DNA from: Gigantopelta aegis | Lineage: Eukaryota; Mollusca; Gastropoda; Neomphalida; Peltospiridae | DNA: 64,000 bases | Assembly: GCF_016097555.1 (NCBI RefSeq) | Contig: NW_024533068.1 | Coordinates: 34,803 to 98,802 of the forward strand | Reading direction: 5' to 3' | In this document: in pieces, positions 20,501 to 58,500 of the stretch | Layout of the letters: every line of letters starts with the position of its first letter | How positions within the stretch are numbered: the stretch's first letter is position 1 | Program-made: the position numbers and the translations under genes | Notes under the pieces: model-generated | Seen by the model: the letters and a program-made list of their open reading frames with translations, nothing else | Told to the model about the DNA's origin: nothing | The model's database searches: none

Positions 20501-23500
20501 TTATTTTGTAGGTCTAATGGCAATAATGAAGACATTATAGCAGGAATTAATGGATGAAAAATAAAGTAAGAGACATTAAATGAGGAGGAATTAAAACATT
20601 CCTCCTCATTTAATTTCTCCTTTAATTTCTCATTGTGTTATTTAAAAATTTTACATAGGTCTAATGATACACATGTCTAACAGTACATAGGTTTAATGGT
20701 ACATAGGTTTAAGTGGTACATAGGTCTAATGGTACATAGGTCTAATGGTACATAGGTTTAATGGTACATAGATCTAATGGTACATAGGTCTAATGGTACA
20801 TAGGTTTAATGGTACATAGGTCTAATGGTACATACCTAATGGTACAACAGTCTAATGGAGCAGGTTTAATTGTACTAGATCTAATGGTACATGTTGTCTA
20901 ATGGTACATAGGTTTAACTTTAATAGGTCTAATGAACATAGGTCTATGGTTCATAGGTCTAAGATTACATAGGTTTCTGGTACATAGGTCTAATGGTACA
21001 TAGGTTTAATGATACATATGTTAATACTTGAAATAACAGCATGAGGTAAATTGACTCCCAAGCTAATGTTGCTGTACAAACAGTACTTTAATAAGTCCAT
21101 CAGAAATATTTCTCGACAAGATTACGATAGTAATACCAGCATGAGTACACCAAATCCATGAGGAAAGAGATCTCTAAGTGCTTATATCCAGACTACGCAC
21201 CTATATAATATACTATAGTAAGTAAACAAGAAGATATGAAATATATACTTGTTTCTCAGCTTGTCCTAATGCTGGAGACTGTTCTGGAGCAATCAAGTCA
21301 CCTTCTCCTTTAGAAGCTGCCATTTCTTTCAGAGCAATAGCAGTTCTTACAGTAGCATTACGAGCATGTACAAAAACCATTACCTATTAATGGTATATTA
21401 TATTACTAGTACAATACTACTATTATACTAATACAATACTAATACAATATTAATACTAGTACAATACTATACTAATACAATACTAATACAATACTAATAC
21501 AATACTACTAATATAGTAATACAATACTAATACAATACTAATACAATACTAATGTTATACTAATACAATACTAATACAATACTAATACAATACTAATACA
21601 ATACTACTAATATAGTAATACAATACTAATACAATACTAATACAATACTAATGTTATACTAATACAATACTAATACAATACTAATACAATACTAATACAA
21701 TACTAATACAATACTAGTAAAATCAGTACAATATTACCTGATATCCACTACGTATATTGTTTAATACTTTATTATAACATATTCGATCCATATCACGTAA
21801 TTGATGTAGAATATTGGGAGTTTTAACTCCAATAAAAGTCTGTGATAAAGGGACAGGACGAAATCTCCCATCAAAATAGAAGAGTCCCTTATAAGGATTA
21901 ACACGTAGAAAACGAGCAACATCAACATAATTTGGTAAAGTAGCTGACAAGCCAACAATACGAATTAATTTTTGACTAGACTCCACCTATAAAACAGCTA
22001 TAAATATAATTAACATTAACCACACCTCTTCATTAACCTGGCGTAATGTGCGAGCTACAAGACACTCAATAACTGCCCCTCTATCTTCATGAAGTAAATG
22101 AACTTCATCAATAATTAAGAGACGAACTAATTGAGAGAGAGCAACATCACCAGTTGCTTTTCTTGTCACAACATCCCATTTTTCAGGTGTGGTAACTATC
22201 ATCTATAATTAAGAGGTGTGGCTAAGATAATAATAAGGGGTGTGGCTAACCTGAGAAGTGTGTATTTCCTGCTTTGTTAATTGTATATCTCCAGTTAATT
22301 CTCTTACAGTAATACCGAGTGGAGCTAATCTATAACTAAAATTACGTACCATTTCAGCAGCTAACGCTTTCATAGGAGCAACATATATGACCTAATAATA
22401 ACACCTGTAATAGTGGGCGTGGCTTAGCATTGTAGTTACCTTAAACTCAGACGTTTTAATGACTCCAGCCTCAATATTATTGGAGATTTCTCTTAAAATA
22501 GTTAGTAATGCTATATTAGTTTTTACCAGCTCCAGTTGGTGCAGATATTAAGAGGTTTTCATTGGTATAAAAGGGCAGTGTCAAATACAGCTGACTGAAT
22601 TGTGTTTAATGACTTAATCCCTTGAAATGCCATCTAATTAAATATTATTAATTATAATTATAGGATTCTCTACTTACTTTGACAATTTCATCAAGTTCTT
22701 TAACAAGTACTTTATCAGCAACATTAGGTGGAGCTGTGCTTGAGTGAGGGACACATATCTCTTCAAAATAGTCTGTGTTCTTTCTTGTGGCATTTTCTGG
22801 CAAACCTACCTGTTATTATATTATAATATGTAAACTTTTTGTAATACACACACACACCACACACACACACACACACATACACACATACATATATATATAT
22901 GACCTGTTTTCCTGAAATGAAAGCTGATGAAAGTTGAGCTTTAGCCAAAGTGTCATAGACATTAGGATATTGTTGAGTGGAATCACTAGATGAGCGAACA
23001 TTGGAGGTCAATACTGGACGACATGCTGCCTCTTCTAATTCTATTTCTCTATACAATAATGTAATAATGTAATTAACTTATGTTGTTAAGATATCATAAT
23101 ATACCTAGCTATTCGTAAAATAGACGGATCATATCCTTGAGATTTCAAATGTGTTATATGATCTGTATCTTGTTCTTTTTCAAGTTTAATTTTCAATTTC
23201 TTTTCTTTTTTTTCTTCTCGTTTCAACTTCTTCAACAAATCCTTTTCATCCTCAGACTAAGAGAGAGAACAATACAGCTGCTGGACCTTAACAAACCACT
23301 AACCATTATTGTTACTTGACTACCTACTACAGGATGTTGATGAGGAAGTTTACTAGTACCTGTATCAATGTACTTATATGTAATATAATATATTAAATTA
23401 ATATGTTATTCACCTGTTGTCACATGACTTTTTGTCTTAGTCACATGACTTGATATATGAGTAGGTGGGTCACTTAAAATAGTATCAACAATAGTTGCTT

Positions 23501-24474
23501 TGTTTGTTATTAGTTCTTGAACAAAATCTAAATTGGAAAACCCAAGTAGTTCAGCAATCTAATACCAGAAAAAAATAATTTCATGCTTATAATTAGAATT
23601 ATAATACTTACACCACTTTCGATGGCTGCTCCTTCAATATCAGATACTAATAAATCAAATAATTGATGATAAAGCTGTTCCCATGGCAACTCGGACATGC
23701 ACTTTTTGCATTGTGTCTCCAACCATTTGTAGCTATATTTATTAGAGTCATGTGACTTCTTTGGTTTAGCCACATGACTAGTCACTTGACGATCATGTGA
23801 TTCAGTTAATCCAGTAAGAAGCGTTTTACTGATAATGTCATGTTTTGACTTGACTTCTTCTTCATCAGAAGAGAGAGAATCACGAGCTGAAGTGAAAGCA
23901 TCAGTCTTTTCAAGAAAGTTAGAATTATATTTGAAGAAAATTTTACTGCCAAACTCTACAATTTCTGCTACAGAATTATTTTCTGCAATTTCTTGACTTG
24001 TTTCTGGTAAAATGGAAGTAATTCTTTTTACCAGATCACAAGCTTTCATTGCAACTGATGCTGGATAAGGTCCAAATGTTTTTACGAATTGTTTCTCCAT
24101 GACTTTACACACAGTCTGGTGAATTGATAAAGAGATTATAAAGGAACACAGTGGCTGAGTCTACGGCAGCCTTATCTTCATCTCCAATAAGATCTTTGGC
24201 AGTCTGTACAAACTCTTTTAATACTGATTGTAACTATGTTAATGAGAAGATATAATTGTTAATGTAGTAATGATAATGATTTCAAATGTACTTTAGTAAT
24301 ATCACCCGGCTTGCATTGTTTTAGAATACCATCTGATATGTTAGACCACGTCTTTTTGTCTTGAGGTAAAGTTCTCTTTTTATGAGCTAGCAATGCCTCT
24401 TCATCAATATCTGATTGAAATACATCATTAAACAGTCTTAATGACTTAGTAAGTCGAGGTGGATCGTCTGCCAT
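14565..24474 (-). CDS. ASCC3: Activating signal cointegrator 1 complex subunit 3, double Ski2-like helicase
   Basis: ASCC3 is the 3'-5' helicase of the ASC-1 complex. It unwinds alkylated DNA for ALKBH3 repair and splits collided ribosomes. Start [19 protein letters not shown] at 24474. Cassette 1: Walker [10 protein letters not shown] (about 22515-22545), [31 protein letters not shown] (about 22075-22110), GLSATLPNY (about 21930-21955) and [12 protein letters not shown] (about 20350-20385), followed by a Sec63-like block (19450-20410). Cassette 2: [13 protein letters not shown] split by an intron (18600-18700), [18 protein letters not shown] (about 18010-18065), [21 protein letters not shown] and QMMGRAGR (about 17180-17205), and a second Sec63 block down to the C-terminal [12 protein letters not shown] (about 14740-14775) and [10 protein letters not shown]. 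The stop is TAA at 14565-14567. Both helicase cassettes and both ATPase motifs are present, so the full length of about 2,100-2,200 residues is likely. Helicase-C of cassette 1 (about 21040-21200) is badly frameshifted. Confidence 0.95.
14866..15092. repeat. Tandem repeat, 57-59 bp unit, four near-identical copies
   Basis: Copies begin at about 14868, 14925, 14984 and 15042, each opening GTGTCCTCAATATAGA and closing AGTATTAGTATGGGACTAGA. Copies differ by one or two bases or small indels. The array lies in an intron near the 3' end of ASCC3, close to the convergent TRPA 3' end. Confidence 0.92.
16711..16866 (-). repeat. 31-bp tandem repeat that copies a splice donor in ASCC3
   Basis: Five copies of a 31-bp unit sit at the 5' end of an ASCC3 intron. 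On the coding strand each unit contains CCAGGTAATTA, the same bases as the end of the exon (CCCCAG) and the donor (GTAATTA). The real exon end is near 16861, after RNP-coding sequence. The repeat therefore carries up to four extra donor-like sites. Confidence 0.85.
17544..17612 (-). repeat. GA/CT microsatellite in an ASCC3 intron
   Basis: A run of AGAG and AGAC units lies in the intron between the cassette-2 exons. On the coding strand it forms a long CT-rich tract. Confidence 0.85.
18105..18205 (-). repeat. Short tandem repeat in an ASCC3 intron
   Basis: A unit near TTAAATGGATACATAATTCA, of about 46-48 bases, is present about 2.5 times between two cassette-2 exons. Related ATGGATACAT words recur to 18430. 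Confidence 0.7.
20645..21020 (-). repeat. 16-bp tandem repeat in an ASCC3 intron
   Basis: About 20 copies of TACATAGGTCTAATGG, alternating with a version carrying TTT in place of TCT. The array degrades at both ends. It separates the exon with [14 protein letters not shown] from the disrupted helicase-C exon. Confidence 0.92.
21409..21722 (-). repeat. 11-bp tandem repeat in an ASCC3 intron
   Basis: About 27 copies of ACTAATACAAT with interspersed ACTACTAATATAGT variants. A longer unit of about 100 bases is repeated twice inside the array. Confidence 0.92.
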
Positions 24475-24510
24475 GACTATTGCACCATTAGTTAGCCACA
24501 CCCATCTAAT

Positions 24511-24742
24511 ATGGTTAAATTATTAACTACAAAATCTTGTGTAAAAGTAGCTGGACATCAATATGTGAGTCTTTTATTACTATTAGAAAATCCACATTCA
24601 GGACTTGATTTTTGATGAGTCAGATAATTCAGACAATATTCTAGACTACATTTGTGAAGGGTATACACCTATAATCCTGTTATTTGACAAGATCAAACAT
24701 ATTGTAACAAATAACGTTTATGACATCAATTGTTGTGTTTAA
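24511..24742 (+). pseudogene. Decayed copy of HDHD3 exon 1 beside the ASCC3 start, with a downstream open frame
   Basis: The exon at 24511-24564 reads MVKLLTTKSCVKVAGHQY, a shortened version of the HDHD3 first exon at 31660 (MAKLLTIDVTN then CIKVAGSVGHQY). The 24 bases before the ATG match those before the other two copies. A GTGAGTCTTTTATTA donor follows as in HDHD3, but the next AG comes after only 22 bases. If spliced there, an open frame of 51 codons follows (KIHIQDLIFDESDNSDNILD onward) to TAA at 24740-24742. A 22-base intron is too short to be credible, so I regard it as a broken copy, possibly still driven by the promoter it shares with ASCC3. Confidence 0.5.
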
Positions 24743-25610
24743 TAGAACTGAGTGTCCAGTTGTTCAAGTACAGGTATAAAACATTAGATAAGATGTATGT
24801 AGCTAACACATACATCTGTATATTAACAATGTATGTATTTTTTTTGTATCGCATTCAGAAAACTATATTAAAAGGCAATGCCATTTATAAACTTGTGGGT
24901 ATAGTGAAATATCAAAATAAACAATACTCTTCATTATACTCTCCACATAAAACAATACTTAATAGTTCTATATCAGTAACAGTAATATATGTGCAAAATT
25001 GTGTTTTATATAATTAATTAATCACCAGTAACATAGGTTACTCCTGTTAATACAGCAAAATCATTCAACAAGATTCATGTTTTTCTATCAATCAGATGAA
25101 GGTTCAAATGTACATGTACTTTTCATATAGAAAATGTAAACTGCAGGCAATAGAAACAACCACTGTCTATGTCATCTATTATATGTCTCACTACAATGGA
25201 TTACATAACAGATGAGGTGAATACTATGACTGACCATATAGTATACACATATATGTGTATACTATATGGTCAGTCTGAAGAAAATGATTTCATATCATTC
25301 AAGTGTATATGGACATCATACTGACAAAGGCATTAACAAACTACCAAAGATCAGGACATTGTCCCTTCTCAAGATCAGTGTACAATTGAGAAGTTAATAT
25401 TAGAAGTACCTGAAGATCTTACATCTACTGATGAGAGATATAACGAAGCCTCACCTCTTTCTTTATCTCCGCCTTTAGAAGGGAGTTGACCCTTATCCCT
25501 TGTTTTGACTGATAATATAGATTTATTATATCCAAACCTGTTTAACCGGTATTTTTAACTTTGTGCTTTTAATTTATTATTTACCTGGTTTCTCTTGATG
25601 TACTATATTT
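24743..25610. other. Intergenic stretch with a palindrome and no supported gene
   Basis: I find no recognisable protein. A forward open frame (24730-25017) and a reverse one near 25400-25500 (reading DKGQLPSKGGDKERGEASLY) are both short and match nothing I know. The latter could be an alternative 3' exon of the DCAF17 copy that ends at 25613. Confidence 0.4.
25228..25275. repeat. Perfect 48-bp palindrome
   Basis: The left arm GACTGACCATATAGTATACA plus CATA is followed without a gap by its exact reverse complement. The centre is between 25251 and 25252; the match stops at both ends (T/T). It could extrude as a cruciform or fold as a hairpin in RNA. Confidence 0.97.
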
Positions 25611-25612
25611 TT

Positions 25613-26165
25613 ACAAGCTACATTATCAGTACTTAAAGTCCCAATCTAGCAAGTCTATTAAATAACGAGGTTCCTAAATGTATAAGTTACCAGTTGTCCA
25701 GAGCGTAATGTTCTTACATGAAATTCATTACATGCAGCAGGTTTTGGATTATGGATATAAACATGAGGGGAGCCTCCAAAATGGACTCCTACTTCAGAAT
25801 TACATTGTGTTTGAAATAACAGTGGTGGAAGTTCTACAATAGTGTAGTATAATGTCAGTTGATAATCATGTGACATACCAGGTATTAATGGTTGTAGGAA
25901 TGCTATTAGGAAATGTACCAGGAGTATATACTGTAGTATCATTAGACTGATAGGATATCCCTAATTTAACTGTAGCTATAGTACACTAGAAGAGAGAGAG
26001 AATATAGGTTATCTTGTCTAATACACTAACATTGTCCAATATCCATTGAAAACTATAATATTGACAATGTTGTGATGATAGCACAAGGAGAAGATCTTCA
26101 GTCAGCGAGACATGACGGATGTTGTCACCAAATATCTATGATAGAGTTAGTGTTATGTTAAACTG
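25613..26165 (-). pseudogene. DCAF17: Partial DCAF17 copy: middle exons only
   Basis: Reverse-strand exons, from upstream, read IFGDNIRHVSLTEDLLLVLS (about 26075-26145), TVKLGISYQSNDTTVYTP (about 25905-25980) and ELPPLLFQTQCNSEVGVHFG, then HVYIHNPKPAACNEFHVRTL (25690-25840), then IGTLSTDNVA (about 25616-25650). These match the second half of DCAF17, a CUL4-DDB1 substrate receptor. The exons are in frame and tidy, but the C-terminal exons present at 29390-30080 are absent: similarity stops at about 25613. No N-terminal exons are visible upstream, where the GC-rich element begins at 26301. It is either a truncated duplicate or an artefact of unmerged haplotypes. Confidence 0.75.
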
Positions 26166-26300
26166 ACATCAAAGGAACTTCCAATATGTTCTTTTATTTT
26201 TACTTTTAACAACTAAAACTTAACATTAACTTTACTTTGGATTGACTGACATTTCTTGTAGTTTAAATAAAGTAAAGATTTATTAAAAAAAAAAAAAAAA

Positions 26301-26650
26301 CATGTTGTGTTGCCCAAACGATTCCTACTCGCTCACCCACTCAGGCTTCCACTTAGGCTCCAGGATTCCCTGCTATTGCTAGCTGGGACCGCCACCTGGC
26401 TTGGTAACCTCGTCTTCGCGAGGTAATCCTGGCTGGAGCATCGCCCTAACTTAAAACCAGCCGTACGGGATTCCAGCTCTTAGGGAATTTCGCATTCAGG
26501 AACCGGGAACCACAAATACACCAGCCTCTTCTCGTTTAAAGGGAGACTACCAGCCCTATCCTAGTCGGCCTTTCGGATACTCCGTAGAGTATGCTGGTAA
26601 CCATCTCAGAGGTCTGATGCATTGCAGAACGCTGGCCCACAACACAACCT
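26301..26650 (-). mobile_element. GC-rich repeat element, copy A (about 350 bp)
   Basis: A block near 50% GC in an AT-rich setting. On the forward strand it starts TGTTGTGTTGCCCAAACG right after a 16-17 base A-run and ends GCCCACAACACAACC. Its ends are roughly inverted copies (TTGTGTTG), as in a short terminal-inverted-repeat element. On the reverse strand it would end in a long T-run, as a pol III transcript does. No reading frame of note. A second full copy lies at 30631-30978 and an inverted partial copy at 27705-27875. I could not match it to tRNA, 5S, 7SL, RNase P or rRNA by eye. Confidence 0.65.
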
Positions 26651-27367
26651 ATCCAAGTTGGTTTTCATTTCCTTTTATATGTACGTCAGATTTTGTCTTC
26701 ATGCTCTTGTGGGGCGCGCTGTTTGTCGCCTATGAATATCATTAACGCTAGTTAGCATCTGTGAGCTATTTAATAACTAAAATTAAACTATATTTTAAAA
26801 GGTCAAGAATAAAACTAGTCCTGCTTAAGCAAACTATAACAACACTACTAATTATATATATTACAATGTCATATACTACAATTAAGAGGTAATAGATATA
26901 AACATGTACATGTTTATTTGTACATGTACATTTATTTAAGTAACAAGTCAAACTAAGTTAAGGTTCTACCTCCAGTGAGGTTGCCATTGATACAGTTGTA
27001 TACTTACACCAACTCACAAAAACATATATAGAACTTGTAGATGTACCTTCATTGGACTCGTATTTGTACATTAAGTTCTGTGTAGACAGTCAGACAAATA
27101 GTATTGACAGTCTTGATATACCTTACATGTACTATTCCAAAACTAAATGCAATACTTGATAACTACATTTGACAATTCTGTAATACTGAGTGTGACACTA
27201 AATAGTACAGTTGTCTGCTTGTGTCAAAATATTTGTTTTATTGTATTTATTTCATATTACTAATGTAAAATATCATTGTCTCTTTTTATGTTAAAACAAA
27301 TAAAAACCATTACCTAAACACTCTATCAATCTAATTTATGTTCATTAGTTAGCCACACCCATCTAAT

Positions 27368-27439
27368 ATGGCTAAATTATTGACAATAGATGTTACAAAT
27401 ATTTGTATAAAAGTAGCTGGATCTGTTGGACATCAATAT
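27368..27439 (+). pseudogene. Duplicate HDHD3 exon 1 (copy A)
   Basis: This exon of 72 bases reads MAKLLTIDVTNICIKVAG then SVGHQY, followed by a GTGAGT donor and the first bases of HDHD3 exon 2 (reading LKHVKK). After that the sequence diverges from the copy at 31660 and the frame closes within about 25 codons. The later HDHD3 exons are not here. Confidence 0.8.
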
Positions 27440-27704
27440 GTGAGTCTTTTATTCCTATCTCTTATATTATTATCATCATTAGTTGAAACATGTTAAGAAG
27501 TACTACTCACTGGTAAATAGATGTATAAAAATAGGTCAATACATTAATGCATATAAAGTTTCAATTGAACATGTATAGTGTGTAAATGCATCTTACTATA
27601 GAGATTAATATTACTATATCAAAAATATTTTTATTATTATTATAGCTGTATTAGCTCTCAGTATTCCTGACCTTGATGATCTTACTACATGAGTTGGTGA
27701 AACC

Positions 27705-27875
27705 AGGATTACCTTGTCTTCGGACAAAGGTTACCAGACTACGGTGGCAGTCTTAGCTAGCAATAGCAGGGAATCCTGGAGCCAAAGTGGAGACCCTAGT
27801 GGGTGAGTCAGGAGGGATCATTTGGGCAACACACAGTTTTTTATAAATTTAGATTTATTTAAAACTACTGGGAAA
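27705..27875 (+). mobile_element. Inverted partial copy of the GC-rich element
   Basis: The forward strand here matches the reverse complement of about 26303-26435, including AGCTAGCAATAGCAGGGAAT and TTTGGGCAACAC, with scattered changes. Weak similarity continues into the flank past the T-run (ATTTATTTAAAACTAC), so the repeated unit may be longer than the GC-rich part. Confidence 0.75.
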
Positions 27876-28147
27876 CTACCTGTCAGTAGAACTGGCCCTC
27901 AGACTGTCATAGAAAATATTTCACAAATTTGCTTAAGTTGTATGGTATATACAAAATATACAATTGGTGTTACAAACATAAAACTGACAAAGAAAATTTC
28001 ATGAAATATTATTAGCATAATTTTTTTTCATACAAGTTTGAAAAAGATACAGTAGTAAGAAAAATTATAGATTCATCTCTTGATACTATGATACCAAGAG
28101 ATGAAATCTATAATTTTTAATTTAAATTTATAATGTTAAGTTAACAG
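27876..28147. other. Stretch before the EGF/CUB gene
   Basis: A forward open frame of 60 codons (27822-28004) lies on the edge of the inverted element and shows no family signature. No signal-peptide exon for the EGF/CUB gene is visible. It holds the hairpin at 28060-28118. Confidence 0.4.
28060..28118. repeat. Imperfect inverted repeat, 23-24 bp arms
   Basis: The arm AAAAATTATAGATTCATCTC plus TTG (28060-28082) is repeated in reverse complement at 28095-28118 with a single extra base, around a 12-base loop. It lies 30 bases upstream of the first EGF exon, inside what would be an intron or leader. Confidence 0.9.
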
Positions 28148-29292
28148 ATGAACATGGTGGATGTAGTCACAGCTGTGTTAATACTAGGGGGTCTTATTAC
28201 TGTACCTGTCCACTTGGATTACAACTGAAATCAGATAATAGAACATGCGAAGGTAAGTTACAATATCTACTGATGTAAATTCTGACTTCTTTACAGATAT
28301 CAATGAATGTTTAACAATTATCATGGATGTAGTCATGCCTGTATTAACAATCCAGGATCATAAATCTGTATATGTCTTAAAGGATTCCAACTGAAATCAG
28401 ATAATAAAACTTGCGAAGGTAAGTTATAATATCTCCTAGCACATGTCATCTTTTTTTATAGACACCAATGAATGTCTAACAGATGATCATGGATGTAGTC
28501 ATAGCTGTGTTAATACTACAGGATCATATTATTGTACCTGTCCATCTAATATGATTCTATCATCTGATAATCGAACATGTATTCAACAATGACAAGATTG
28601 TTCCCATACTCTCACTGATGCTAGTGGTACAATATCTTTACCAAATACAAATTGTACTTGGAAGATTGTTATTTCTGACAAAACTCTTGTCATATCATTG
28701 ACATTGTCTAATCTCCAAATATCATCATCATTGTCCAAGGCCTGTTCTGATGGTTATATTGAAGTATTTAATGGACCTGATACTACTAGTGTATCACAAG
28801 GTAAATTCTGTACTGGTACGACAACTATTACATCATCAACTGAGGAGTTAACTATAAAGTATCATTATAATACTGGTAGTACAGGCACTATGACATATTC
28901 CAGTATTAAACCATAGTAAGTAAATATATATACTTTGTCATAAATTTGTTGTTGCTTTAGTTAAATCATGCTTTAGTCTTGTCAATGAAAACCAAATGCT
29001 GTCACTTAGTACTTTCCCAGGGAAATATACACAGACCGTTAACTGTTGCTATTATATTTTCCTTAACAATAAGAAACCAACTTTCCGACTTCTCTACACT
29101 GATCTTGACTTTACAGACTGTACTTCTGACTACCTAACTGTATATTCTGGACTTGCTACAAAAATTGATGCAATTTGTAATAGTCAAGGACAGACAGAAT
29201 ACACTAGTACAAGTACTATTATGAAGATAGAATATAAAGGAACAACACTATCAAAGTATCGTGGCTTTCATGGAATCATAATTACAAAATAA
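28148..29292 (+). CDS. EGF/CUB domain protein, probably secreted, 5' end not found
   Basis: Three EGF-like modules on successive exons: HGGCSHSCVNTRGSYYCTC (from 28148), DINECLT with HGCSHACINNPGS (from about 28297) and DTNECLTDDHGCSHSCVNTT (from about 28461). The second and third begin with the D-x-N-E-C calcium-binding signature. A CUB domain follows (about 28590-28916: NCTWKI, LSLTLSNLQI, CSDGYIEVFNGPD, GKFCTGT), then a second CUB domain (28960-29292: CCYYIFLNNKK, LDFTDCTSDYLTVYSG, ending GFHGIIITK, TAA at 29290-29292). Such modules act in extracellular binding and matrix or signalling proteins. No signal peptide, transmembrane segment or protease domain is seen. It is flanked by the two copies of the duplicated block, and its upstream exons may have been lost or displaced. 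Confidence 0.8.
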
Positions 29293-29389
29293 ATAACTCC
29301 TTAATAATATCATAGATATTAATATCTGTGATTATATCTGTGATTAACTTTGTAATGAAGACCGTTATATGTCTGTGGTTAACTTTTTA

Positions 29390-30600
29390 TTAATGACTGT
29401 TATCAGTTAATGATGAAGTTTCTCTTGTCAATCGATAAAAGTAACAGATGTTACCAGCAACATATATTAGACAATCCAGTTCATAATAAATACTGTTAGA
29501 TTCAGCCTATAAAAGGAATGGATATATGAATCAAGAATTGATGGATGCATTCTGGATTCCAAGTTGGAAGTAGTACAGTTTTAGTAATTTTTCCTGTATT
29601 GTCATCTAAAAAAACACAATTGAGCTACTGTTTCTTCTCCTTCAGGTAATGTGATAACAGTATATAAGAAATCTAATTCATTTTCATGATCCAAGTCTTG
29701 AATAGCCGACTATATATTATAGAACACATTATCATTAATTTTTAACCCTTTGACCACAAAATCTCCATAATGTGGTTCTGGTTTCTTGGCTTTTAATAAT
29801 ACGTCCTCGATAGAAACTTATATGGCAATGATGTCAATATTATGTCATTATGATTGCATCATTATTTTTTACCACTTCTGTATCTTGTTCTGTTTTCAGT
29901 GCTTTGAAATTAGTCAAATATTGAAGAGTCAAACCATTTGTTGTTAATCTATAACACCTGATAATAAATACATGAGTAATTGCATTAATGGTGGGTGTGG
30001 TTGTTACATGAGGGTACATCCACTTATATGAAGTATACGTTGGTAGTCTTCAAAATGAAATGATGCAACATCATGATGGAAAGCTACATTATCAGTACTT
30101 AAAGTCCCAATCTAGCAAGTCTATTAAATAATGAGGTTCTTAAATGTATAAGTTACCAATTGTCCAGAGCGTAATGTTCTTACATGAAATTCATTACATG
30201 CAGCAGGTTTTGGATATGGATATAAACATGAGGGAGCCTCCAAAGACTCCTAGAAATAGAATTACATTGGACTAACAGTTTTCCAATTCTACAATAGTGT
30301 AGATAATGACAATGTTGGATCAGTCAGTGAGACATCAGATGTTGTCACCAAATATCTATGATAGTATATAGTAGTATAGTGTTAGGATATCCTAATTTAA
30401 CTGACTATATCTAGAAAGAGAAGGAATAACTTGTCAATATTGTCCAATTCCTTGAAAACTTTTTGACTTTTATGATAGCACAAGGAGGAGACAACTAAAA
30501 CGGATGTTTAACTATTAGTTACTTTGAACTTTAAAGGAACTTCCAATATGACTTTAACACTTTTAACAACTCTTGTAGTTTGACTGAATAGTTTAAATAA
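29390..30600 (-). CDS. DCAF17: DDB1- and CUL4-associated factor 17, C-terminal half
   Basis: DCAF17 is a WD-like substrate receptor for the CUL4-DDB1 ubiquitin ligase, found in the nucleolus in vertebrates. The intact 3' exons read IGTLSTDNVAFHHDVASFHF then EDYQRILHISGC (about 30010-30105), RLTTNGLTLQYLTNFKALKT (about 29890-29950), SIEDVLLKAKKPEPHYGDFV (about 29755-29815), AIQDLDHENELDFLYTVITL with GEETVAQLCF (about 29620-29705), TGKITKTVLLPTW and IYYELDCLIYVAGNICYFYR, ending LTDNSH and TAA at 29390-29392. This follows the family order to its end. The upstream exons (30110-30600) are the block-B version of the exons at 25690-26145 and are corrupted: pieces of the IFGDN exon and the TVKLG exon are interleaved. 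N-terminal exons were not found. Confidence 0.85.
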
Positions 30601-31797
30601 GTCAAGATTTATTAAAAAAAAAAAAAAACATGTTGTGTTGCCCAAACGATTCCTACTCGCTCACCCACTCAGGCTTCCACTTAGGCTCCAGGATTCCCTG
30701 CTATTGCTAGCTGGGACCGCCACCTGGCTTGGTAACCCTCGTCTTCGCGAGGTAATCCTGGCTGGAGCATCGCCCTAACTTAAAACCAGCCGTACGGGAT
30801 TCCAGCTCTTAGGGAATTTCGCATTCAGGAACCGGGAACCACAAATACACCAGCCTCTTCTCGTTTAAAGGGAGACTACCAGCCCTATCCTAGTCGGCCT
30901 TTCGGATACTCCGTAGAGTATGCTGGTAACCATCTCAGAGGTCTGATGCATTGCAGAACGCTGGCCCACAACACAACCTATCCAAGTTGGTTTTCATTTC
31001 CTTTTATATGTACGTCAGATTTTGTCTTCATGCTCTTGTGGGGCGCGCTGTTTGTCGCCTATGAATATCATTAACGCTAGTTAGCATCTGTGAGCTATTT
31101 AATAACTAAAATTAAACTATATTTTAAAAGGTCAAGAATAAAACTAGTCCTGCTTAAGCAAGGTAACAACATAGATATATAAACATGTACATGTTTATTT
31201 GTACATGTACATTTATTTAAGTAACAAGTCAAACTAAGTTAAGGTTCTACCTCCAGTGAGGTTGCCATTAGTACAGTTGTATACTTACACACCTACTCAC
31301 AAAAACATATATAGAACTTGTAGATGTACCTTCATTGGACTCGTATTTGTAAATTAAGTTCAGTGTAGACAGTCAGACAAATAGTATTGACAGTCTTGAT
31401 ATACCTTACATGTACTATTCCAAAACTAAATGCAATACTTGATAACTACATTTGACAATTCTGTAATACTGAGTGTGACACTAAATAGTATAGTTGTCTG
31501 CTTGTGTCAAAATATTGTGTTTTTATTGTGTTTATTTCATATTAGTAATGTAAAATATCATTGTCTCTTTTTATGTTACAACAAATAAAACCATTACCTA
31601 AACACTCTATCAATCTAACTTCTGCTCATTGTATCATTAGTTAGCCACACCCATCTAATATGGCTAAATTATTGACAATAGATGTTACAAATACTTGTAT
31701 AAAAGTAGCTGGATCTGTTGGACATCAATACGTGAGTCTTTTATTCCTATCTCTTATATTATTATCATCATTAGTTGAAACATGTTAAGAAGTACAC
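30084..31797. repeat. Duplicated block, copy B
   Basis: Direct repeat of 25612-27510. The part from the A-run through the GC-rich element and its right flank (about 30615-31160) is almost identical to copy A. The left part has many deletions. About 60 bases present in copy A at 26832-26890 are missing here. The right part continues into a complete HDHD3 gene. Confidence 0.9.
30629..30978 (-). mobile_element. GC-rich repeat element, copy B
   Basis: Differs from copy A at about one position within 350 bases (one extra C near 30738), with the same preceding A-run and the same right flank. Near identity beside diverged flanks suggests recent duplication or gene conversion of this segment. Confidence 0.7.
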
Positions 31798-32710
31798 ACC
31801 AGATACTGCAATGTTGGAAGACTCTATTGAAAAAGCGTTCAGGTGTGTATCCATTAGTCGTATCTATGTATCCATTGTTTAGTTCAATCTATCCATTGTT
31901 TAGTAAGATTTATCCATTTCCATAGAGTCCATTACAAAAGAATGTTAATTGAGCAACCTAACTTTGGCTGTTACTCTAAACTAGGATGTCGTCAATGGTG
32001 GAATATTGTAAGCAACATTCCTATATTATGTGTCATTTTTACAACATTCATTACAGGTAGTGACACAGACATTATTGTCATGTGGTTTATAAAGGACCTA
32101 CTGATCTTATTTGTCAGTCATTGTATGATGATTTTACTGATAGTCAATACTGGGTAATTTATGATGATGTCATGATTGTTTAACTAAGATGAAATCAATG
32201 GGCTTAATGATAGGGGCTGTATCTAATTTTGATGAGAGATTAAGTAGGTCTGTGATATTGATTTTTAGTTTCATTCCTGTTTTTAGATACAATTTTGGAT
32301 GGAATAGGTCTGAGTCCTTTCTTTGATTTCGTATTAACATCATATATTGAACAATGTCACAAACCAAATATTCAGTAATCAAATAATAAGATTATATAAT
32401 ACATATATTATTTTTAGGATATTTCATAAAGCATTAATACATGGTAATGTATCTGCCAAGGAGACCTGGCATATCGGTGATGATTATGTGAGTATAGAAC
32501 ACACAATGACATTTACATTCTATTAATAGGATAATGATTATGTTGCTGCTACTAATGCTGGACTACATGCTCTGTTACTGATAAGGGACAAAGTAAGGAT
32601 TGTTGCTATGGTAATCACTTCATTTTTGCAGACTAAGGATCCTCCTACAGGTGATGTACCTGTAATCAGAAACAATGAGAGAAGCAGTGGAGGTTGTAAG
32701 ACAGTGCTAA
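31660..32710 (+). CDS. HDHD3: HAD-like hydrolase domain-containing protein 3
   Basis: A haloacid dehalogenase-superfamily protein, presumed hydrolase. Exon 1 (31660-31731) reads MAKLLTIDVTNTCIKVAG; motif I is D-V-T-N-T, with the nucleophile Asp present and the residue two further on being Thr. Exon 2 reads LKHVKKYTPDTAMLEDSIEK. Next comes YKRMLIEQPNFGCYSKLGCR with QWW (31936-32007). A piece near 32060-32160 reads GPTDLI, SLYDDF and YWVIYDD. Motif II is in LMIGAVSNFDERL (about 32206-32242); motif III and the cap end are in LTSYIEQCHKPN and RIFHKALIHGNVSAKETWHI with GDDY (about 32417-32488), then DYVAATNAGLHALLLIRDK. The end is probably TAA at 32708-32710. It lies head-to-head with DCAF17. Its first exon also occurs at 27368 and, degraded, at 24511. 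Confidence 0.88.
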
Positions 32711-32748: not shown

Positions 32749-32821
32749 GCCCAGTTAGCTCAGTCGGTAGAGCATCAGGCTTTTAACCTGAGGGTCAAGG
32801 GTTCGAGTCCCTTACTGGGCG
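32749..32821 (+). tRNA. tRNA-Lys (anticodon UUU)
   Basis: A complete cloverleaf of 73 bases. Acceptor GCCCAGT pairs with ACTGGGC (32814-32820). The D loop carries the A-box TAGCTCAGTCGG; the anticodon arm CATCAGG-CTTTTAA-CCTG has a TTT anticodon; the T arm AAGGGTTCGAGTCCCTT carries the B box. There is no intron. It starts 38 bases after the likely HDHD3 stop and ends 151 bases before the GPN2 stop. Confidence 0.97.
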
Positions 32822-32822
32822 C

Positions 32823-32972: not shown

Positions 32973-33971
32973 CTATAGCAACACATACCTAGTATATTGA
33001 TAATCAGCTGGATCTACTGCTGACATCAAACCAGTTAATGTATCTCTCTCATTTTGAGTATAAATATAACCACTAGCTTTATCAATAGCTCTTGTAACCT
33101 CCAATAAACTCTCCTTATCCTAATAAGTGATAATTAATAAATAATTTTATATGATTATTATACCTGAATATTAAGAGGTGTAAATGATACTAGACTATAG
33201 TCTTTAATTAAACTAATTAGAGATTGATTAAGGGACTTGTAACGAATGTAAAAAGGATCATCAGAGAGATGTTCAAGAAGATATGACAAGTCTAGTACAT
33301 CAGTATAATAATCCAAGCTAAATGCTGAGAAAGAATTCATGAATAGTATTAAACTAACAATACCTAATTGATCATATTGTTGTAATAGATCTACTTTGGA
33401 GAGGATATTAAACATGAGGTAATTCTATTTGTATCATACAAGCTAGAGATGTTAATAAAACTGATATAAATTTGCCCGGGATCAGTGCAATAATGTGAAT
33501 CAACTAAATGAACAGCTGAAACCTAAAAATAATAGTAATTATTAACATCAATTATCAAGTTCCATAACTCACTTTCATACCCCATTTTTGTAACTGTGAT
33601 GCTAAATTCCTTACTGAGTTATGGTGAGTGTATAACTCTACTTGTCCAGGACAATCAATGATGTAATAGTTAGAGTATTCTATATGCTGTAGTTTTGCGT
33701 GTAGCCATTCAACGTTCTTTTCCAAATATTCCATACAATATATCAATGCTCCATTTGGTCCCAATTGTAATCGTTTCCATTACATCATCTAACGTTATAA
33801 GTTCCATAATATCGACAGCACAGTCATATGGTAGACTGTCGTTTGCAGGATCTAAGTTAACTACTGCCACTGAACGACCCAGAGTTGATAAAAATTGCTT
33901 CATGCCATTACAATATGTAGACTTACACTACCTGGCGGCCCCATTACTAGCTGTACATAGCAAGTGGCCAT
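32973..33971 (-). CDS. GPN2: GPN-loop GTPase 2
   Basis: GPN2 is a small GTPase that works with GPN1/GPN3 in assembly and nuclear import of RNA polymerase II. The start is at 33971; the P-loop GPPGSG-K-S/T (about 33910-33945) has one base missing after GSG. Next come [20 protein letters not shown] and [16 protein letters not shown] (33800-33890), then the family-defining GPN loop in [20 protein letters not shown] (about 33705-33765) and [12 protein letters not shown] (about 33625-33660). G4 lies in [14 protein letters not shown] (about 33360-33410). Then [31 protein letters not shown] and [20 protein letters not shown], with stop TAG at 32973. Its length of about 300 residues matches the family. 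Introns are about 40-130 bases. The start faces the CEP126-like gene 150 bases away. Confidence 0.93.
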
Positions 33972-55500: not shown

Positions 55501-58500
55501 TGTTAGAAGCTTATCTCTCATAGCACGATTTGCTGATAGTCAATATCAGAGGATAGCCAGTCATATGAGCACAGCAATGTATAAAGCAAAGAGAGATTTA
55601 ATACAGCAATCAAAGGTATTAAGTAGTAGTATCATAAAATTACAGTGTTAGTCTTTGAGTTAGATTGATGTAGAAGCTCTTCATGACGTAGGTCATGGCA
55701 ATAAAGCTATCCAAAGGGTTATTATAATAAGTAATATTATTAATAATAATAATATTTTATTATAGACATGTTCGTCAATTAATAAAACATAGCGAAGAAG
55801 ATGAATCAATTATGAAACAACAGGAAACAAGACCGTAAACAATTTCTTGAGAAAGCCATGTTAATTATGCACTTTGTCTTAAATCTGGAGTGAGTACATA
55901 CCATATATGGTAGAAGATCATAATTAATATTATTAGGATCAGTATAATTTAAGAGTGTTTAGACTTTGTTCTTTGTGGTTTGCCAATAATAGTGACCTTA
56001 CTATCAATACATTAGTCAAGGTCAGCTTATCATAACATTAAAATATGTCAGAACAATGTCTCTCTAGGACTATCTTACTGAATTACCAAGTTATAAATGT
56101 CCTGCCATTAATTATCAATTAGCAGCTAGGATGAGTTCACTCAATAAAGATTCATTTCAGACATTGTTACATGAGGGGGGGGGGGGGGGGGTGGTGTGTC
56201 TTAATTGTATTATATGATGTTATCTCTTACTATTTTAGATATTATATAAACTAGGTCATGATCATCCATATCACACAATATATGTATTTTAGCATTAGCT
56301 AATGCTGGACTTGATAATGACTTCCCTAATAAAGGATATGTTTACTGGTCATGTAATTAAGAGTGGGCGGAGACAAACACGTAGTAGTTTATCTATGATA
56401 CGAAACATTGTACAGTTGATGAGGTAATTGTCATAGCAACCTAAACAATATATATTGTAACTATATATCTGTCATTGTATATCTGAGTACATACTAGTAC
56501 ATTAGCTAGTTTATTTTAATGTATTGATTTATATGTCTTTCTATAGTAAAAGTATTGTCCTCATTGTGATTTGTTGATATTAGGAAAAGGTTAAAGCTGC
56601 TATTGATATCTTAATAAACTGAAGTGTGGTTAAACCAGCATTTACTAAAGATATGATGCAACTTTGTGAATGTTATATTGATTTAGCCTATCATGATGTT
56701 GAAGCATTTCGTACAGAGAAAAGTCAGTGGTCTCTTTAAAAATATTAATAATTTTTTTGTTATTATAGAACCCATTAAAATACCTTCCTCTTGTCCATTA
56801 TTAAAACTGAAACCAAGTCAAGTTGCTATCCCAAACACTAAATTTACCGGTATATAAATGATGTAAATTATGGATACAATCATGACATAATAGGTTGATC
56901 CTTTGTGTGAATATAAATCCATTATTACTATACAAAGTTATGACGGTCACTTGACATTATGTGGAGGTATTAATTTGCCTAAAATCTTGTCATGTTTGGG
57001 TAGCCGATGGCCGCAGAAGAAAGACAATTTTAAAAGGAAGAGATGATTTAAGACAGGATGCTGTAATGCAACAAGTATTTAGTTTAGTAACACCAATTAC
57101 TTCTAAAGAATCCATCAACTGTTAAAAGGAAGTTATCAATAAGAACTACAAAGTAAAAAAAATAAATTATAATATTTTTATTGATGTGATGTGATAGGTT
57201 ATTCCCCTCTCTCAATGTTCTGGGATAGTAGAATGGTGTGAAGGGACTATACCATTAGGTACTTATCTTATTGGATCAAATGAGAACCCATTTGAGGGAG
57301 TCACTGTCGATATCGTCCTAAAAGATTGGAAAAATTTAGAATGCAGAAAGAAATTTGCTGTAAGTCCTACGAGTCACATGATCATATATAATTATATAGT
57401 CCATAATATAGATGGGGCTATGTCCACATGGATACATGACATATATAGTATATACATAATATAGATGGGCTATGTCACATGATCATATATAGTTATATAC
57501 ATAATATAGATGGGTCTATGTCACATGATCAATATAATTATATACATAATATAGATGGGCTATGTCACATGATCATATATAATTATATACATATATAAAT
57601 TGCTATGTCACATGATCATATGTAATTAATACATAATATAAATTATGTCACATGTCACATGATACATATGTAATTATATATCATATATAGATTGGCTAAA
57701 TCTAAACATCAAAAGTCATTGATCTATAAAGAAATCTGTCGTCATTTTAAACCAGTCTTAGTCCATTTTTTCATGGAATATTTCACTGATCCTGGATTGT
57801 GGTATGAACGAGTCGACTTGCCTATACTAGATGTATGGCAGCTTCTTCCATAGGTTAGTGTATGACAAACATATTACATCATTATGATGTCATTGTCTAG
57901 TGGGCTATATAATGGGGTCTTGAAGATAGACATGTTCAAAATATACTAATTGATAAACAGACAGCGGAAACTCATCCATATTGACTTAGGTGTATATACT
58001 TCTAATCAACATGGATTGTCATTGTGATTTTATTTGTAGGTGTGGCTTTTGAACAAGGTCGTACATTACCAACTCCTGAGGTGATCCCTTTTTCGATTAA
58101 CCCGAGATTTAGTTAATTGGTATGGGATTAACTGGTGTAGAGGGTGTGTTCCAACGTTGCTGTGAAGAAACATTGGCTGTTATGAGAGCATCCCGGAAGA
58201 ACTAAAGACCATTGTTGAATAAGATGCATATGTGTATAGCTACAATATAAACAGGGTGTGCTCTTCAATAGTTTTTCCTCTTGTCTATGATCCATTGTAT
58301 ATTTGGACATTGAGTCCACGAAAAAGTCCGTCATATTCAAAGAAGAATGCCAGATGAGGACTTGACATTAGAGACACGCCCATCAGAAGGGACTGCCCCC
58401 CCTGAGTCCATACTGCGTCATCAGGATCTCAGTCTAATAACAAAATGGCAGAACGTGTCCTTATAAGGTAATATAATGTGTGTGATATAAGAGAATGTAC

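Follow-up and report, generated by a model that had tools for sequence, protein, structure and literature searches.

Genes and Features of the Locus

The window analysed here is a stretch of 64,000 bases from the gastropod Gigantopelta aegis, and it contains one long direct repeat, the two copies of which lie on either side of a gene with EGF and CUB domains. Copy A occupies positions 25615–27503 and copy B positions 30081–31795, both read on the forward strand. Each holds, in the same order, reverse-strand exons of DCAF17, a run of A, a G+C-richer core and exon 1 of HDHD3. Two blocks of 1.7–1.9 kb with a shared order of genes and element had been proposed in a preliminary description of this DNA, and self-BLAST and alignment confirm them. 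The same description had placed an EGF/CUB gene between the blocks; both kinds of domain are indeed matched there, in open frames that span 28126–29292 on the forward strand. The frame of this gene is broken at 28316, and a stop lies at 28590–28592, between the EGF and CUB parts. Upstream of copy A lies ASCC3, and between the two is a perfect 48-base palindrome (25228–25275), with arms of 24 bases and no spacer.

HDHD3 is represented three times. In copy A, exon 1 is found at 27368–27439 on the forward strand, its end read from the alignment, and homology to the HDHD3 locus stops at 27503. Beside copy B, the gene was followed from 31660 to 32592, the end of the last piece searched, as joined pieces on the forward strand, with a frame break and an exon 2 whose first part is shortened; the joined exon pieces match the human HDHD3 structure (PDB 3k1z) with E 1.8e-9. 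This copy had been described as a full HDHD3. It does continue beyond exon 1; however, the alignment to the human protein lacks about 7 residues close to where exon 2 begins, and a shift of frame occurs between 32171 and 32180. The third representative is a degraded exon 1 with its upstream sequence at 24479–24583, detected on the forward strand by self-BLAST. Relative to copy B, it has two 9-base gaps, both of which keep the frame, and 37 bases separate its ATG from the start codon of ASCC3, at 24474 on the minus strand. The presence of this degraded copy suggests that real duplication has taken place at the HDHD3 locus. A tRNA-Lys gene (anticodon TTT), found at 32749–32822 with ARAGORN and Rfam, lies between HDHD3 and GPN2.

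Extent and Alignment of the Two Copies

In the self-BLAST of the window (E limit 1e-5, low-complexity masking on), copies A and B form a single long direct repeat with 85.1% identity over 1908 columns (E 0.0). The 24 other listed matches are shorter than 300 columns and consist mostly of short tandem arrays; no second repeat of comparable size was found in the window. The global alignment of the copies was then split into segments, the borders of which were picked after the alignment had been viewed. The left end (25615–25790) has 3 substitutions in 171 ungapped columns (98.3% identity) and 4 gap events, and the right flank (26896–27503) has 14 substitutions in 607 columns (97.7% ungapped identity) and 5 gap events, so that the flanks together hold 9 gap events in about 780 columns. 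Between the left end and the core lies a patch (25791–26283 in copy A) with 42 substitutions, in which B lacks 143 bases and A lacks 8, and in an A+T-rich stretch between the core and the right flank B lacks a further 48 bases. Outside the patch and this short gap, A and B are 97.7–98.3% identical without gaps. The diverged flanks that had been described around the core are therefore not what the alignment gives, as the divergence is that of the patch and the 48-base gap.

The two copies end differently. The left edge of copy A (25615) cuts a coding exon of DCAF17 and its right edge falls inside intron 1 of HDHD3, beyond which other sequence follows and not exon 2. Copy B runs on leftward into the C-terminal exons of DCAF17 and rightward into HDHD3 exon 2 (31802) and onward. 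Since the edges are cut in A and both genes continue in B, copy A is the partial copy. Inspection by eye showed no target-site duplication at either end of copy A, the sequence on either side of it has no long match within the window, and the 2.6-kb stretch between the copies holds, within the window, short repeats only. There is no run of N in the 64,000 bases, hence none between the copies.

The Identical Core

The core lies at 26284–26832 in copy A (A-run at 26285–26300) and at about 30612–31161 in copy B (A-run at 30614–30628). The near-identity over 540 bp noted earlier is confirmed by the alignment, in which 548 columns are identical, with no substitution and two one-base gaps. Compared with the two flanks, the core is depleted in substitutions (0 of 548 versus 17 of 778 columns; Fisher p 1.9e-4, with borders chosen post hoc).

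One candidate explanation of the block is that the core belongs to a mobile element present in further copies, and that two loci were brought together through it, by assembly or by recombination. In the window, self-BLAST finds a piece of the core's left end in inverted orientation at 27703–27863 (minus strand, 77–80% identical), so the core has a nearby relative. A 25-base signature of the core occurs three times in the window and in none of 100 shuffles, and a 9-base inverted match (26304–26312/26640–26648) is located near the core ends. These three observations could fit a mobile element. No target-site duplication was apparent on inspection. The homology of the two copies extends far past the core on both sides, which an element alone does not explain. 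Moreover, a 24-base signature of the core has no exact match in viral_contigs or genome_contigs, two collections of viral and prokaryotic sequence from which the genome of the window is possibly omitted. We consider this origin of the block improbable.

Other identities of the core were considered. A Rfam scan of the window at gathering thresholds returned the tRNA-Lys alone, and a permissive scan of 26250–27350 gave a single match with E 0.31, so the core was rejected as a known structured RNA. The minus strand of 26296–26660 folds with a z-score of −1.76, and 5 of 100 shuffles were at least equally stable. As a protein, the core was likewise rejected: its 96-aa forward reading belongs to no Pfam family.

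DCAF17 Divided Between the Copies

The middle exons of DCAF17 are located in copy A at 25676–26135 on the reverse strand, where two parts of the Pfam profile PF15802 are matched. Positions 178–217 of the profile are found with E 0.018, below the curated cut-off and with an unrelated family at 0.067; positions 240–301 reach E 2e-4, or 2.9e-5 when the open frame alone is searched, also below the cut-off. The middle exons of copy A, which had been called clean, are thus Pfam-supported, albeit by weak matches. No PDB relative of the copy A exon was detected at E 1. Further right in copy A, Pfam searches of the right flank for the N-terminal half of DCAF17 were negative in all three frames, and an approximate human DCAF17 sequence used as query gave a very weak match (E 8) at 27089–26967, in the right order, which is at most a lead.

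Beside copy B, joined pieces from 29505 to about 30100 match profile positions 306–451 with E 3.1e-6 and 26.6 bits, just under the cut-off, and they agree with the earlier placement of the DCAF17 C-terminus here (29505–30093, reverse strand). One of these exons, 30093–30022, reaches across position 30081, at which copy B begins, and the same exon is truncated at 25615 in copy A. Copy B also retains the end of one of copy A's DCAF17 exons. A Pfam search of 29400–30630 in three frames gave no DCAF17 match at E 0.5, but it missed the C-terminal exons there as well, so this negative result carries little weight by itself.

When the middle exons of copy A were joined to the C-terminal exons beside copy B, the match to DCAF17 improved from E 3.1e-6 to E 4.8e-18 (65.6 bits, cut-off 27). 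Selection of the pieces was by eye, with the expected family in view, and the comparison is that of the C-terminal exons alone with the same exons preceded by those of copy A. The gain suggests that the two copies carry parts of one gene.

The Garbled Patch of Copy B

The counterpart of the copy A middle exons in copy B had been described as scrambled, and it is. The patch in B (30245–30612, reverse strand) differs from A 25790–26284 by an edit distance of 176 over 495 bases, i.e., about 36% edits, and one cluster, A 26062–26144, appears early in the B patch, at 30307–30364, out of order. For comparison, 20 shuffles of the B patch averaged an edit distance of 238 to A and never came below 232, and 52 random segments of the window gave a minimum of 224. 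The observed distance lies below all of these minima, indicating that the patch is related to A but badly altered. A derivation from elsewhere in the window was rejected, as all matches of the patch with E ≤3.7e-5 go to copy A. We regard B as the damaged version because the DCAF17 match resides in the A version. Such dense damage between stretches of 98–100% identity would be hard to produce by mutation, and a failed consensus would be the simpler cause. Noise from a single read was judged insufficient, given the displaced cluster.

False or Real Duplication

We favour the reading in which the duplicated block is a false duplication in the assembly, and we give it a probability of roughly 60%. 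It is favoured by the complementary gene parts brought out by the joined DCAF17 search, by the left edge of copy A, which lies inside a coding exon that runs uninterrupted in B (30093–30022), by the garbled B patch of about 370 bases between flanks of 98–100% identity, and by single-base frame breaks in conserved genes elsewhere in the window. The animal probably has a single locus, in which reverse-strand DCAF17 would stand beside forward-strand HDHD3, with the core between their exons and perhaps within a DCAF17 intron. The assembler may have retained this stretch a second time, taken from the alternative haplotype or reassembled from noisy reads, and may have placed this version some 4.5 kb upstream, as copy A. 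The outer parts of both genes would then have remained with copy B, in which one patch was written from a failed consensus, and the identical core could be due to polishing with shared reads or to a stretch where the haplotypes agree. This route to the join is our inference, like the single locus itself.

A report on false duplications (PMC9516828) describes them where haplotypes diverge and where reads carry errors, and the cases presented there include exon gains and losses on one scaffold. The locus resembles the heterotype and homotype false duplications of that report in that gene copies on a single scaffold are partial, exons are lost in a complementary way and the sequence is error-prone. 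Of the four marks listed there, the analysis covered the assembly gap, and here the locus differs, as no N run separates copies A and B. The missing gap counts against a false duplication. So do the flanks of copy A, which have no long match in the window, meaning that one haplotype was not simply placed after the other, as well as the older third HDHD3 exon-1 copy and the lack of any other repeat of such size. The core is also difficult in this respect, as two gaps and no substitution in 548 columns would demand, from independent noisy copies, a further cause such as shared polishing. On balance, the evidence leans towards the earlier suggestion of unmerged haplotypes or a mis-joined repeat, and the true tandem duplication with gene conversion, also named there, is the less probable reading.

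In that alternative, a recent partial tandem duplication would have placed a second DCAF17/HDHD3 boundary between ASCC3 and the EGF/CUB gene, with truncated parts of both genes in copy A, and gene conversion would afterwards have made the two cores alike. We hold this to be possible, at clearly lower odds than an assembly error. The direct orientation and the uninterrupted sequence agree with it, conversion would give a core free of substitutions between flanks that carry them, and the older exon-1 copy and the presence of short repeats only in the intervening 2.6 kb point the same way. With partial segmental (tandem) duplications with gene conversion, the locus shares direct orientation, short distance and a core that is closer in sequence than the flanks are. 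A garbled patch bordered by near-identical sequence is unexpected there. A real event leaves this patch unexplained, and also leaves unexplained why the Pfam-matching middle exons are in the truncated copy and the end of DCAF17 is beside the other. A serial version appears unlikely: an old exon-1 copy beside ASCC3 would have been followed by a recent 1.9-kb copy, and either gene conversion or selection on a regulatory element would have prevented the 548-bp core from diverging.

Under either a false or a real duplication, the finding is an ordinary one, and its use is as a warning for annotation. Gene models in this region would show one HDHD3 fragment too many and DCAF17 in two parts, along with frame breaks in ATM, ASCC3 and GPN2; the animal itself is probably without all of these defects.

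Frame Breaks in the Genes of the Window

Eight single-base frame breaks were read in five genes, and three of them, one each in ATM, ASCC3 and GPN2, are backed by an alignment. The reading covered genes that could be named, and the error rate implied by the breaks is a rough estimate. In ATM, one piece ends at 57004 and the next begins at 57006, and the residues of human ATM (PDB) to which they align adjoin each other. The ASCC3 break, supported by a PDB alignment, lies near 22522, at the ATP-binding loop of the protein. In the gene matching PF03029, which we take to be GPN2, two overlapping frames match profile positions 9–66 and 59–120; three more breaks were read from its translation, given this family assignment, and the breaks span 33409–33927. 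The breaks in conserved genes leave no room for an intron, and the introns of this animal appear to be short.

The breaks in ASCC3, GPN2 and ATM suggest a consensus that carries indel errors. By rough estimate, an error rate of this kind would produce about as many gap events as the flanks of the repeat show (9 in about 780 columns). The frame breaks in HDHD3 and the EGF/CUB gene could also be real null alleles or mark pseudogenes. Tandem repeat stretches were seen as self-matches at 20652–21032 and 57373–57729, within or next to ASCC3 and ATM.
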